From Runella sp. (GTDB lineage: Bacteria > Bacteroidota > Bacteroidia > Cytophagales > Spirosomataceae): a DNA stretch of 37,801 bases. The position numbers and the translations under genes were made by a program. This document shows positions 486-7,373 of the stretch, in pieces (positions within the stretch are counted from its first letter, which is position 1; every line of letters begins with the position of its first letter). The stretch covers positions 1 to 37,801 of the forward strand of contig JAIXPV010000439.1 in the NCBI GenBank assembly GCA_027486105.1, written 5' to 3'. The notes under the pieces were generated by a model. That model was not told where the DNA came from. It saw nothing but the letters and a program-made list of their open reading frames with translations, and made no database searches.

Positions 486-767
486 CTACCAAATAGTGGG
501 AATATTTTGGGCGGCATGAAACAAAAATTGCTGCAAGCCCGCCTTCCCTTCCACACCGAGCTTAGCGATGAGGTTGTTTTTGTGCTTCTTCACCGTACAG
601 ATGGCCGTTCCCAATTGGTCGGCTATTTCGCGGTTGTTCCGGCCTTCTTTGGCCCAATACAGCACATTGAGTTCCTGAGGGGAGAGAAAAATAGATTGGC
701 GGAGCAGAAAAATGCCTAACCTGTTCAATGGGTCGAAATGGTCTGGTTGCGGGCACTGGGCTGTCAT
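486..767 (-). CDS. Small stand-alone LuxR-type HTH regulator (93 aa), paralog of 65..370
   Basis: SPQELNVLYWAKEGRNNREIADQLGTAICTVKKHKNNLIAKLGVEGKAG, clearly related to the adjacent ORF. Confidence 0.78.
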   Translation of the reverse strand: MTAQCPQPDHFDPLNRLGIFLLRQSIFLSPQELNVLYWAKEGRNNREIADQLGTAICTVKKHKNNLIAKLGVEGKAGLQQFLFHAAQNIPTIW

Positions 768-1219: not shown

Positions 1220-1966
1220 ATGAAAAAACGAGAAAAATTAGCGATAATAAGAAATTATTATCCCAATGCCGTCACCACGATTGACAGTGTAAACAAACTC
1301 ATCGACTTTCTGGAAGAGCATTTAGATTTAGAGCCTGGCCAAATCATGCTGGCCGACAGTATTTGCAGCGACGATGTAAACGCCATTCAGTATCCATCCA
1401 GAGCGCACGAGTTTTTGGGGCCTTTCAAAATGGGCGGCTTGGATGGGTATCCTTTTACGGGCCTTACGGGCATGGGGGCCTTTGCCAGCCACGTACCCGA
1501 CGAAGGCGCCGTCTTTATCTATTACGGCCCCCACATCGGCATCACCAAAGAAGGGGTCATCGGGGAGATTAAGCGCGTGGGGCAGGCCAAAAATTCGGGA
1601 TGTTGCGGAGCCGCCAAAGGGGCGCTCAATAAACTGGTGAACAATCAAATTGTGGAAGGCAACGTGACCGAAATGGACTTCCAAATGAACACCATTGAGC
1701 AAATACTGCTCCGCCAAAAAGACCGAATTCTCAGCGCGGCAGTACCACTTTATGAGGCAACCGAAGTAATTTATGAGGCCATCGACCAACGTATTCATGA
1801 ATTGGTCGAAAAAACAAACTACCACTGCAAGTATGTAATATTGTTTGGCACCATCCTGATCAACAGCGATTCTGACATGGGGTCTTACACCAGCGCAAAA
1901 CGCTTCGACATTATTGACTTGGCCACCAACGAAAAAAGGAGCGTCTTGGATTACTACGACAATTAA
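1220..1966 (+). CDS. LCIB/C-like (theta-class-like) carbonic anhydrase family protein
   Basis: 248 aa; SICSDDVN, GYPFTGLTGMGAFASHVPDEGAVFIYYGPHIGITKEGVIGEIKRVGQAKNSGCCGA resembles the LCIB pattern with Cys/His/Cys zinc ligands (C49, H91, C128/129). Confidence 0.72.
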   Translation: MKKREKLAIIRNYYPNAVTTIDSVNKLIDFLEEHLDLEPGQIMLADSICSDDVNAIQYPSRAHEFLGPFKMGGLDGYPFTGLTGMGAFASHVPDEGAVFIYYGPHIGITKEGVIGEIKRVGQAKNSGCCGAAKGALNKLVNNQIVEGNVTEMDFQMNTIEQILLRQKDRILSAAVPLYEATEVIYEAIDQRIHELVEKTNYHCKYVILFGTILINSDSDMGSYTSAKRFDIIDLATNEKRSVLDYYDN

Positions 1967-1988
1967 ACAATAACCAAGAGATTGAACG

Positions 1989-2034
1989 GGGCCGTCGAAA
2001 GCGTACAATTGTGCGCTCGACGGCCCTATATTTT
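1989..2034 (+). terminator. Rho-independent terminator-like hairpin after the LCIB-like gene
   Basis: GGGCCGTCGA ... TCGACGGCCC followed by TATATTTTT. Confidence 0.75.
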
Positions 2035-2367
2035 TGAAAGGCTTGCGTCGTGCAGCCAAATGAACTTCCTCAAAGGGGCTATCTTTTCTTCTTCTTCTGG
2101 GTCGCACTTGGCCATTATTGAACGCTAGTCAATATCACTTTTCTCAACCTCGTCCTCTGCAATGGAGTGTACCAAAATGAGCGTTTGGCGTATACTTTTT
2201 CTTTATCAACAGACCATTAAGGCAGAAAATCGCAAAAATCAGAAAAATAAAGACCTTTTTAGGATAAAAATACCGGAATTCCAGTATTGCGCCTTGCCTA
2301 ATCTTGTATGAAATTTGGGTACTCAAATCTTTACCCTACTATATTAAAAACTTTAACATTGATTATT

Positions 2368-2718
2368 ATGAATCCACAACTATTCATTTCTGAAAATTTG
2401 GGCCATCAGCATTTCTTTTCATTCGATTTGGAAAGTGTGGTGCGTTTGGAAGGGGTTAGAAATTACACCCGCTTTATCCCAGCAAAAGGACAACCAGTTA
2501 TTACCTGTCGATCGTTGGGTCTTTATCTTGAACAACTACCGCAGCAGTTTGTGCGAGTCCACAAAAGTTATGTTATCAACTGTCGATATATTTTAGGAAT
2601 AGACCAGCGCAATCATTCTATTATGATGACCGACGGCACGTCCATTCCTATTTCGAGACGAAAGAGAACAACTATCATGCGCCTTTTGGGGAAGTCCCGT
2701 TTAAAATCAACGACTTAG
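2368..2718 (+). CDS. LytTR DNA-binding domain protein without receiver domain
   Basis: FSFDLESVVRLEGVRNYTRF...QFVRVHKSYVINCRYI is LytTR-like; ATG at 2368 preferred over 2308. Confidence 0.78.
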   Translation: MNPQLFISENLGHQHFFSFDLESVVRLEGVRNYTRFIPAKGQPVITCRSLGLYLEQLPQQFVRVHKSYVINCRYILGIDQRNHSIMMTDGTSIPISRRKRTTIMRLLGKSRLKSTT

Positions 2719-2798: not shown

Positions 2799-3443
2799 AT
2801 GCGCGTATTGTTGGCAGATGACCACCTGATTTTGCTTGAAAGTTTGGCAGCTCTCTTAGAAAAAAAAGAAGGGGTTCAGATTGTTGCCAAAGCCACGAAT
2901 GGCTTGGAAGCACTCCAGCTCCTGGAAGAGATACCTATAGATATAGTCGTTTCTGACCTCAATATGCCTCTTTTGGGGGGTATTGAGTTTACAATGCGTG
3001 TAAAGGAACGATTCCCTCACATAAAGGTAATTTTGCTCACTATGGTAGAAGATGCCTCCCAGATTCGGGAAGCTATTCAGGCAGGTGCATGTGGATATAT
3101 TCTAAAAAGTGCCTCCCCCGACGAATTGCGGAAGGCTTTGACCGAAGTGAGCGAAGGAAGGCGATACTTTAGCCGCGACATTGAAAAGCAATTGGCTTCT
3201 ATTCCCAATCCACACGTCCCCAATGGCCACGAAATCGTGGATGGGGTTCCGCATTTAACCAAGCGTGAAATCGAAATTATTCGGTTTATTGTACATGATT
3301 TTTCCAGTGAAGCTATTGCCAAGCAATTGAATGTCAGCATCAATACTATTGAAACCCACCGTCGAAATATCTTCAAAAAACTACGCCTGAACACAGTAGT
3401 AGGACTGGTACGATTCGCGATTAAATATAAGTTAGTTGACTAA
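2799..3443 (+). CDS. NarL/FixJ-family response regulator (REC + LuxR HTH)
   Basis: MRVLLADDHLILLESLAALL...VVSDLNMPLLGG...; C-terminal LTKREIEIIRFIVHDFSSEAIAKQLNVSINTIETHRRNIFKKL. Confidence 0.92.
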   Translation: MRVLLADDHLILLESLAALLEKKEGVQIVAKATNGLEALQLLEEIPIDIVVSDLNMPLLGGIEFTMRVKERFPHIKVILLTMVEDASQIREAIQAGACGYILKSASPDELRKALTEVSEGRRYFSRDIEKQLASIPNPHVPNGHEIVDGVPHLTKREIEIIRFIVHDFSSEAIAKQLNVSINTIETHRRNIFKKLRLNTVVGLVRFAIKYKLVD

Positions 3444-3476: not shown

Positions 3477-4454
3477 TCAATTCTTTATCGTAGGTCTTAT
3501 CAATCTTGCGAGAAACTCCTGATGCAAGGCATTGCAATAGGGTGATTCGGGAAAATCTTCTTTAAACCGTTCCAACAACTTGCCCGCAACGGTGTATTCT
3601 TTCTCGGGTGAAAAGTACGCCAACGAAAACGCCCTCTGTACGGTTTTGGCAAGCATCAGTTCGCGGGTTTGGGGGGATTTGCGCAGTCCGTCATATATTG
3701 AATTATACCATCCTTCCCACACCGTGCTGTCGAGCTGCAGCACCATATTTCGATTCATAAAAGGTCCTGGCAGAAAACCTAGCCACCGCGAATACAAAGC
3801 CTCGCGGTAAATATCCGAGATAAGGGCTTCGTCGTTCATCATTTGTAGGCTAATTGACTCATTTTTAGCCGCTTCTCCCAGGCTCCGAAGGTAGGTTTGT
3901 TTGCGTAAATATTTTTGTCCTTCCAACGACGCCAAAACGTACGCATTTATCTGATGGTTTGTGGTATCCTGCTCACGTTGAAAACGTTCGGCCGACTGGG
4001 TAGCAAGATCGTTGATAACAAACGAATAATCTTCCATCGACATGTGCTGAAACAGGGGTTTGCGCCGGAGAGAATCCTGCCCAAACAGCAAGCTTCCGTA
4101 CAAAAACTGGTGTAAACGAGCCGTTGGGCCTTTTACGACTGGGAAAGACGACCGGCTAGGGTTGACGAAATAAAGGGTGTCGTTGGGTTTAAGTAAAAAA
4201 TCGACGCGGTACCCCAAACATTCAACCGTTACTTTTTGGGGCGACTCAAGACACAAATCAGCTTTAAAACAGCCACTTTCGTCGGTGCGCTCTTTCAACA
4301 CAGCTTCGGGGTCGTACGGAGAAAATCCCAAAGGGTTATCCAAAAAAATTTGATACTGCGAAGAAGGAAACCCCTCAAAATAGCCTTGAATATGCACATT
4401 TGGCTGGGCAAAACTCCGCAAACAGCAAACAAGCAAAAGGAGTAAATACCGCAT
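3477..4454 (-). CDS. Hypothetical exported protein, possibly DUF4369-like N-terminus
   Basis: Signal peptide MRYLLLLLVCCLRSFA; beta-rich N-terminus (VHIQGYFEGFPSSQYQIFLDN); no thioredoxin CxxC motif. Confidence 0.6.
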   Translation of the reverse strand: MRYLLLLLVCCLRSFAQPNVHIQGYFEGFPSSQYQIFLDNPLGFSPYDPEAVLKERTDESGCFKADLCLESPQKVTVECLGYRVDFLLKPNDTLYFVNPSRSSFPVVKGPTARLHQFLYGSLLFGQDSLRRKPLFQHMSMEDYSFVINDLATQSAERFQREQDTTNHQINAYVLASLEGQKYLRKQTYLRSLGEAAKNESISLQMMNDEALISDIYREALYSRWLGFLPGPFMNRNMVLQLDSTVWEGWYNSIYDGLRKSPQTRELMLAKTVQRAFSLAYFSPEKEYTVAGKLLERFKEDFPESPYCNALHQEFLARLIRPTIKN

Positions 4455-4466
4455 AATCCTGTCTGT

Positions 4467-7373
4467 TTAAGTACGTAATGCTTCCCACAAAATCTCAATC
4501 GGATGTTTGGCTTTTCGCCCCGTACCATCTTTGATTTGATGACGGCAACTCGTGCCTGGCGCGGCAATAATGACCTCTTCTGGCTGTTGACGCACCGTAG
4601 GAAAAAGCACCAATTCACCCACTTGCATCGACAACTCATAATGCTCCTCTTCGTAGCCAAAAGACCCGGCCATGCCGCAGCAACCCGAAGGAATCAATTG
4701 AACGGTATAATTTTCGGGTAACGACAGCATCTTTTTGCTCGGAGTCAGCGACGACAACGCTTTTTGGTGACAATGCCCGTGCAATTTAATGGTTTTTTGT
4801 TCATTCGTAAACTGTTGACGATGAATACGTTTTGCATCTATCTCGCGCCCAATAAACTCTTCAAACTGCAAGGCATTTTTGGCTAATTTTTGAGCTACCT
4901 CCTGAAGTTCGTTAGGAACTAAATCGAGGTATTCGTCCCGAAAAGTCAAAATAGCCGAAGGTTCGATGCCAATCAAATGGGCATGGTCAGAGATGACATC
5001 CTTGAGCATTTCTACATTCTGAATCGCTATTTTCTTTGCCTCTTTCACCAAGCCCTTTGAAAGATACGTTCGGCCGCTTTCGGAGTGCTTGGGAATGATG
5101 ACTTCATAGCCTAGTTTTTCGAGCAATAAAATCGCTTTCTGGCCTATTTCAACGTCGTTGTAGTTCGTAAATTCATCACAGAAAAGATACACCCGCTTAC
5201 CTCCGCTCTGTGGTCGGGCCTTGTGCCAATCTGTAAGGGTTGTTTTTGACAACATTGGCATGGTTCGGTCGGGGTGAAAGCCTACCATTTTGTTGGCAAT
5301 GCGCCGCAGTGACTCATTGCCAAAAATAGAATTATACGCCCAGGGTGCAATACTCGCCAAACGCATCTGTTGGGAGAAGTTAGCAATTAACCGCGCCCGA
5401 AACGGCACCCCGTTTTTATCATAATAGCTTTGCAAAAACTCCGCTTTCATCTTGGAGATATCCACGCTCGACGGGCACTCCGACTTGCAACCTTTACAGG
5501 ATAGACAAAGGTCCAAAATCTCCTTGGTTTCTTCGGCACTGGCATCGACCGAGGACGATTCGGTATAAAAATGACGCAGCATATTGGCACGGGCGCGAGT
5601 GGTGTCGCGCTCACGCCGCGTTGCCATGTAGCTTGGGCACATGGTACCGCCAGTAATGTGGGTTTTACGACAATCGCCCGAACCACTGCATTTTTCGGCC
5701 AATCTTAACAAGCTTTCTTGTTTTGAAAAATCAAAAACTGTTTCGATGGGAGGGGCTTTTTGGTCGGGCTGATAACGCAAAAACTCGTTCATCGGCGGTG
5801 TATCCACAATTTTCCCCCGGTTGAACACCCCGTACGGGTCAAACATTTTTTTTACTTCCCGAAACAGCCCATACACTTCCTCTCCCATCATAAACGGAAT
5901 AAACTCACCGCGCAGGCGCCCATCGCCATGCTCGCCCGAGAGCGAACCATTGTATTTTTTGAGCAACACGGCCGTATCTGCCAAGATATTCCGAAACTTG
6001 GCCTTGCCTTCCGAAGTTTTTAGGTTGACCATTGGCTCTACGTGCAGCTCACCTGCTCCCGCATGGGCATAATACGATGCGTGCACTTGGTGTTTCTTGA
6101 GCACTTCGCCCAAATCTTCGATATAATTCGGTAAGTCTTCCACCGCCACGGCACAATCTTCAATGAGGTTGACGGGCTGCAAATCGCCGGGTAAGTTTCG
6201 AATCAGGCCCAAACCTGCTTTGCGCACATCCCAAGCTTTTTTGGATTCATCACCAAATAGCAACGGATACGCATATCCTAAGCCGTTTAGCTTCAGTTCA
6301 GCCACCAATTTCGCCGCCGTTGTTTCAACGTCTGCGCGGGTTTCGGCCCCAAATTCCACCATGAGCATCGCCGCGGGATCACCTTCAATAAAAAAGCGAT
6401 TGTGACGGTATTCGTTGTGCTCTTTGGTAAAATCCATGATGTATTTATCCACCAACTCCGACGCCAACGGATTGTGTTTCATAGCAATACCGTTTGCCAG
6501 CAGTGATTCATGCAGCGACTGGCAATGCACACACAACAACCCGAGCTCGGCGGGGGGCAAGGGTAAAAGGTTGAGTTTGGCTTCAGTAATAAAACACAGG
6601 GTCCCTTCTGAGCCAGCGATAAGTTTGGGTAGATTCAAGCCGTTCGGTAAGTCAAGCAGGGCGTCAAGCGCGTAGCCTGAATTACGGCGTGTGACCGTTT
6701 TTTTAGGAAATTTCTCTCGAATAAGTTTTTGATTACCAGCATCTGACAAAAGTGATATAAGGCCCTGTTCAATACGCTCCCGCAGAGAGTTTGCCTGATT
6801 TGAAACCGACTTTTGGCCAAAAACGGCCTCGCTCCCATCGCTCAATAAAGCTTTAACTTCCAATAAATGGTCGCGGGTAGCGCCCCAACTGATGGAGTGG
6901 AGTCCGCACGAGTTGTTACCAATCATCCCGCCAATCATCGCACGGTTAGCAGTAGACGTTTCGGGTCCAAACATCAATCCATACGGCCTCAAAACCACGT
7001 TGAGGTCGTCACGAATCACACCCGGCTGTACTCGTACCCAACGTTCATCGGCATTTATTTCGAGGATTTTGTCAAAGTATTTAGAAATATCTACCACAAT
7101 TCCCTCACCTACCACTTGGCCCGCGAGGGAGGTGCCAGCCGCGCGCGGAATCAGCGTGAGGCCATGCTCCACGGCAAACAAAATGAGTTTTTGAATATCA
7201 CCGACCGTTTTGGGCAAAGCAACCGCCAGCGGGATTTCTTGGTACACCGAAGCATCGGTTGAATACAACCGTCGAATGGCCTGGTGAGTAACCGAATCGT
7301 CAAAAAAGAATTCTCCCTCAAAATCAAGGGTTAATTGGTGAAAAGGAAGTTTAGTAGGTGCAGCGTAAAACAT
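4467..7373 (-). CDS. FAD-binding and (Fe-S)-binding oxidoreductase (D-lactate dehydrogenase/GlcD-like fused to GlpC-like CCG module)
   Basis: LIPRAAGTSLAGQVVGEGIVVDISKYF (FAD_binding_4); CLSCKGCKSECPSSVDI (4Fe-4S); HGHCHQKAL and PSGCCGMAGSFGYE (CCG). ATG at 7373 preferred. Confidence 0.9.
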   Translation of the reverse strand: MFYAAPTKLPFHQLTLDFEGEFFFDDSVTHQAIRRLYSTDASVYQEIPLAVALPKTVGDIQKLILFAVEHGLTLIPRAAGTSLAGQVVGEGIVVDISKYFDKILEINADERWVRVQPGVIRDDLNVVLRPYGLMFGPETSTANRAMIGGMIGNNSCGLHSISWGATRDHLLEVKALLSDGSEAVFGQKSVSNQANSLRERIEQGLISLLSDAGNQKLIREKFPKKTVTRRNSGYALDALLDLPNGLNLPKLIAGSEGTLCFITEAKLNLLPLPPAELGLLCVHCQSLHESLLANGIAMKHNPLASELVDKYIMDFTKEHNEYRHNRFFIEGDPAAMLMVEFGAETRADVETTAAKLVAELKLNGLGYAYPLLFGDESKKAWDVRKAGLGLIRNLPGDLQPVNLIEDCAVAVEDLPNYIEDLGEVLKKHQVHASYYAHAGAGELHVEPMVNLKTSEGKAKFRNILADTAVLLKKYNGSLSGEHGDGRLRGEFIPFMMGEEVYGLFREVKKMFDPYGVFNRGKIVDTPPMNEFLRYQPDQKAPPIETVFDFSKQESLLRLAEKCSGSGDCRKTHITGGTMCPSYMATRRERDTTRARANMLRHFYTESSSVDASAEETKEILDLCLSCKGCKSECPSSVDISKMKAEFLQSYYDKNGVPFRARLIANFSQQMRLASIAPWAYNSIFGNESLRRIANKMVGFHPDRTMPMLSKTTLTDWHKARPQSGGKRVYLFCDEFTNYNDVEIGQKAILLLEKLGYEVIIPKHSESGRTYLSKGLVKEAKKIAIQNVEMLKDVISDHAHLIGIEPSAILTFRDEYLDLVPNELQEVAQKLAKNALQFEEFIGREIDAKRIHRQQFTNEQKTIKLHGHCHQKALSSLTPSKKMLSLPENYTVQLIPSGCCGMAGSFGYEEEHYELSMQVGELVLFPTVRQQPEEVIIAAPGTSCRHQIKDGTGRKAKHPIEILWEALRT

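Follow-up and report, generated by a model that had tools for sequence, protein, structure and literature searches.

The open reading frame at positions 1220–1966 of the Runella DNA analysed here (a stretch of 37,801 nucleotides, hereafter the window) very probably encodes a cytosolic, zinc-dependent carbonic anhydrase (CA) of the LCIB/LCIC (theta) type, on the competent, PtLCIB4-like side of this family and with a bestrophin-linked job in its relatives. LCIB is a carbonic-anhydrase-like protein of algal carbon-concentrating systems, and the window protein is an additional member of the already known LCIB/C family.

The LCIB/C gene and its neighbourhood

The frame starts with ATG and ends with TAA (Table 1). 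Homologues over its full length with 60–97% identity were found in dozens of Bacteroidota genomes, which bore out the Bacteroidota host named in an earlier, sequence-only reading of this DNA. A chance open reading frame was ruled out by these homologues and by a full-length Pfam match (E = 9e-78). The window protein is 97% identical to its counterpart in R. aurantiaca YX9, which identified the source genome as Runella. The genome search revealed one PF18599 gene and no second copy.

Table 1. Features of the LCIB/C gene region in the window
Feature	Position	Strand	Evidence
Second small LuxR/GerE-type HTH ORF, 101 aa	65..370	-	PF00196, E = 2.2e-11
Small LuxR/GerE-type HTH ORF, 93 aa, upstream neighbour	486..767	-	PF00196, E = 1.4e-12
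Predicted LCIB_C_CA (theta-type) carbonic anhydrase gene, 248 aa, active-type Ser50	1220..1966	+	PF18599, PDB homologues, invariant columns, AF2/Foldseek
Rho-independent terminator hairpin, followed by the T-rich sequence TATATTTTTG	1988..2027	+	-31.6 kcal/mol, z = -6.7 against shuffles
LytTR DNA-binding protein, 136 aa, downstream past the terminator	2308..2718	+	PF04397, E = 2.3e-14
Response regulator (receiver and LuxR HTH), downstream neighbour	2799..3443	+	PF00072, PF00196

The gene had been described as standing alone next to small regulators and as having a strong terminator of its own, and both descriptions held: the two upstream frames, both of LuxR/GerE type, run in the opposite direction, a LytTR gene and then a response regulator gene follow downstream, and the LCIB gene is closed by a stable hairpin with a T-rich tract. 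The nearer LuxR/GerE-type frame occupies the same place in R. aurantiaca. A simple terminator scan did not call the hairpin, whose stem contains a two-base bulge that such a scan probably does not tolerate. No match to the Bacteroidetes -33/-7 promoter pattern was found upstream of the LCIB gene, and a sigma-70 scan gave chance level only. A short GATA tandem repeat of about eight copies is located between the LCIB gene and the LuxR-type frames (825–857).

Family and fold of the window protein

The assignment to the LCIB/C (theta) family, proposed from motif spacing, was confirmed by the HMM search that had been suggested for it. The match to LCIB_C_CA (PF18599) scored 261 bits, the cut-off being 25, and covered profile positions 2–223 of 223. 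PF18599 was the only Pfam family reported, with no match to the beta-CA family Pro_CA (PF00484). Sequence matches in the PDB were exclusively LCIB-family chains, namely 6kfs (E = 1.6e-30), 9vzj (3e-29), PtLCIB4 (3e-24) and Chlamydomonas LCIB (CrLCIB, 3e-9).

The protein was modelled as a monomer by AF2 from an input alignment of 72 bacterial homologues (mean pLDDT 95, pTM 0.92). The sole ten-residue block below 90 comprised residues 51–60 (pLDDT 71). Superposition of the model, which the sequence-only reading had also proposed, agreed with the family assignment: in Foldseek, PtLCIB4 (E = 1.5e-18) and 6kfs ranked first with TM scores of about 0.8 (range 0.80–0.84). The best eight entries all belonged to the LCIB family, CrLCIB and LCIC following PtLCIB4 and 6kfs, and beta-CAs came after them with weak scores.

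Active site residues

A Cys-His-Cys zinc site and an Asp-Arg dyad had been read from the motifs SICSDDVN (C49/D51), GMGAFASHVPDEG (H91) and GQAKNSGCCGAAKG (C128/C129) together with R61, and these motifs were found at the quoted residues. Alignment of 72 bacterial members revealed S47, C49, D51, F69, G76, G81, G84, A87, H91, P93, P104, H105, R119, C129, G130 and D153 as invariant. When 25 homologues from viral contigs were included, the invariant polar residues were C49, D51, H91, H105, R119 and C129. Thus the proposed zinc site stands with C49, H91 and C129, whereas C128 is dispensable, being replaced by S, T or N in relatives (T or N in the 25 viral-contig homologues). Zinc is probably coordinated by C49, H91 and C129, the last being preferred to C128 as third ligand since it is invariant and C128 is not.

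The proposed dyad had to be revised in one of its two members. D51 is invariant, but R61 is S or A in all 25 viral-contig homologues and is absent beyond the close Bacteroidia clade. Given this lack of conservation and its position next to the least confident part of the model, R61 probably does not serve as the dyad arginine. The better candidate is R119, an invariant residue that corresponds to Arg194 of CrLCIB in the alignment, which argues for a D51–R119 dyad with a predicted spatial contact. H91 aligns with CrLCIB His162 and with PtLCIB4 H88, and S50 with PtLCIB4 S47. The aligned His and Arg of the CrLCIB chain are exactly 32 residues apart, the spacing of His162 and Arg194 as numbered in a review (PMC5876011).

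A bestrophin operon in related Bacteroidia

Eighty Bacteroidota loci, not statistically independent of each other, were gathered by similarity to the window protein, and in 51 of them a bestrophin gene (PF25539, checked for two representatives) adjoined the LCIB gene on the same strand. The bestrophin gene was located upstream in 47 linked loci (46 with gaps of 2–96 bp and one with an overlap of 4 bp; median 15) and downstream in four. Directly upstream of the bestrophin, 24 of the 51 loci carried an Ion_trans_2 potassium-channel-like gene. The pairing was found in Spirosomataceae, Flavobacteriaceae, Weeksellaceae, Sphingobacteriaceae, Chitinophagaceae, Cyclobacteriaceae and others. Since it occurs in both gene orders and in several families, it is not one inherited block.

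Among 59 near relatives of the window genome, a bestrophin was located within 3 kb for 8 of the 13 LCIB genes, compared with only 5 of the 81 beta-CA genes; four of these five beta-CA genes were immediate neighbours. Bestrophin–beta-CA gene pairs were also observed in other Cytophagales (loci L159, L160, L161 and L162), in parallel to the bestrophin–LCIB pairs. At the window locus and in its closest relatives, the R. aurantiaca group, no bestrophin adjoins the LCIB gene. R. aurantiaca has a bestrophin of the linked type elsewhere in its genome, following a TMEM175 potassium-channel gene, and the matching contig of the window genome stops short of this place. The non-Bacteroidia relatives examined (families f42 and f65) had no bestrophin within about 1.5 kb of LCIB.

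In algae, BST1 and BST3 are interaction partners of LCIB/C (PMC6708349), and bestrophins can conduct bicarbonate (Qu and Hartzell, 2008, as cited in PMC11142338). The bestrophin link in Bacteroidia, the bestrophin–beta-CA pairs and the algal interaction together suggest a membrane-associated role in the handling of bicarbonate or pH. We tentatively propose, at somewhat less than even chances, that in heterotrophic Bacteroidia the conserved operon of bestrophin and LCIB, with or without the potassium channel, encodes a functional channel–CA complex, a RuBisCO-free bacterial counterpart of BST–LCIB in which the CA slot is filled by LCIB or by a beta-CA. The literature search found no paper on a bacterial bestrophin–LCIB operon; most subscription papers lay outside this search and a prior description is possible.

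Distribution and viral homologues

A survey of CAs from 2026 regarded theta-CA as mostly confined to diatoms and protozoa (PMC13098186), and the sequence-only reading had implied that such an enzyme is rare in Bacteroidota. This rarity was contradicted by genome sampling: the PF18599 family was present in 12 of the 59 near relatives and in 35 of 396 genomes sampled across Bacteroidota, most of the latter belonging to one family (f42) of another class. LCIB-type CA is therefore widespread in Bacteroidota and not unusual there. Replacement of beta-CA by LCIB was considered and rejected, as every LCIB-bearing relative sampled has a beta-CA too. No homologue was found in the plasmids searched. In the family tree, 37 of 75 inner branches lacked support, too poor a resolution for dating the operon; from this tree we took only that the window protein pairs with a Runella copy linked to bestrophin (97).

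Two deviating genes were observed. The LCIB gene of Spirosoma lacussanchae (L051, 6001–6768) is apparently split into two frames of 101 and 100 aa, by a frameshift or as a pseudogene. A different, Chlamydomonas-type LCIB is encoded in another genome of Cytophagales, the order of the window genome (L013, 1465–2184). It matches CrLCIB with E = 2e-39 and, like inactive LCIB, has Arg in place of Ser50.

LCIB-domain proteins are also encoded by 26 viral contigs of IMG/VR (L127–L152, up to 217 kb). They are mostly 358–399 aa long with an N-terminal extension; all catalytic residues were retained in the 25 homologues examined, and the five stretches checked were all above the Pfam cut-off. The gene of L131 adjoins tail sheath and tail tube genes, L129 carries a tandem pair of LCIB-like genes (3740–4861 and 4870–5802), and the model of the L137 protein (pLDDT 77) matched the fold of PtLCIB4 and 6kfs. 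A phage-contig homologue used as query gave no match among INPHARED phages, and no paper on viral LCIB-domain proteins was found.

Predicted function

The window protein is most likely a working zinc carbonic anhydrase, both metal and activity being predicted from the conserved residues. Zinc on C49, H91 and C129 would bind hydroxide for attack on CO2, while the D51–R119 pair may open the fourth zinc position and steer bicarbonate. Ser50 would occupy the site where inactive Chlamydomonas LCIB has Arg. The likely job is to convert CO2 to HCO3- and back next to an HCO3-/anion channel in the membrane, that is, inorganic-carbon or pH handling and not the feeding of RuBisCO. This role is suggested because related Bacteroidia make the enzyme from a bestrophin operon, often together with a potassium-channel-like protein; the direction of flux and a physical contact with the channel are presumed. 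In the clade of the window the LCIB gene forms a separate, self-terminated unit. The window genome contains two beta-CA genes, each adjoining a SulP permease, so the LCIB enzyme may be redundant.

Membership of the family does not guarantee catalysis: Chlamydomonas LCIB and LCIC keep the zinc site, and yet they are reported to have shown no CA activity (PMC5876011). The window protein might likewise be catalytically dead and serve another protein, such as a bestrophin, in a structural or regulatory way, as proposed for the Chlamydomonas proteins, and the linkage to channels would suit a regulatory subunit. We regard this as unlikely, as the window protein has Ser where CrLCIB has Arg, resembles PtLCIB4 and 6kfs far more than CrLCIB, and belongs to a family with invariant H91 and R119. 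Moreover, the pairing of bestrophins with beta-CAs as well points to CA chemistry as the linked function. A role as hydrolase of COS, CS2 or a similar small molecule on a beta-CA/LCIB fold is very improbable: COS is hydrolysed by some beta-CA clades (PMC13098186) and carbon disulfide hydrolase gave a weak Foldseek match (3teo, E = 0.69), but LCIB-family proteins were the best matches, and the neighbours are free of sulfur metabolism, the linkage being to anion and potassium channels. Finally, a part in an autotrophic CO2-concentrating mechanism supplying RuBisCO, as the family name and the algal role would have it, can practically be set aside, since RuBisCO_large was detected neither in the window genome (84% complete) nor in the LCIB-sharing R. 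aurantiaca group, and the RuBisCO_large-family proteins of 5 of 12 other Runella genomes are open frames of about 420 aa, possibly RuBisCO-like proteins.

LCIB-type CAs are ordinary enzymes of a heterotrophic phylum. How LCIB and bestrophin channels act together in algal carbon concentration is unsettled, and LCIB of Chlamydomonas is inactive when purified. A bacterial operon of two or three genes with both parts would allow the channel–CA link to be tested directly, and hosts of the operon (Runella, Chryseobacterium, Dyadobacter and Pedobacter) are culturable.

Comparison with known systems

PtLCIB4 of the diatom Phaeodactylum tricornutum (PDB 5b5y) and 6kfs share with the window protein the fold, the zinc-site residues, the Ser between Cys and Asp and the Arg aligned with R119, at about 25–28% identity in the structural alignment. 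In contrast, their Arg following 'DEVN/T' is Ala in the window protein and Ser in most Bacteroidia relatives. Chlamydomonas LCIB/LCIC (5k5w, 5b5x) belong to the same Pfam family and fold, and His162 and Arg194 have their counterparts in H91 and R119; however, LCIB shows about 17% identity, differs at the Ser50 position, is reported as inactive and is matched far better by the Cytophagales L013 protein than by the window protein. Classical beta-CAs (PF00484) resemble the window protein in Cys-His-Cys zinc chemistry and weakly in fold (TM about 0.4) and, like LCIB of relatives, sometimes lie next to bestrophin, but they constitute separate genes in the same genome. The clade of the window differs from the algal module and from related Bacteroidia in lacking the adjacent bestrophin. 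The related Bacteroidia, like the algal CCM module of LCIB and BST1–3, combine an LCIB-family CA with a bestrophin, here in an operon; the bacterial version is without RuBisCO or pyrenoid and is presumably located at the plasma membrane.
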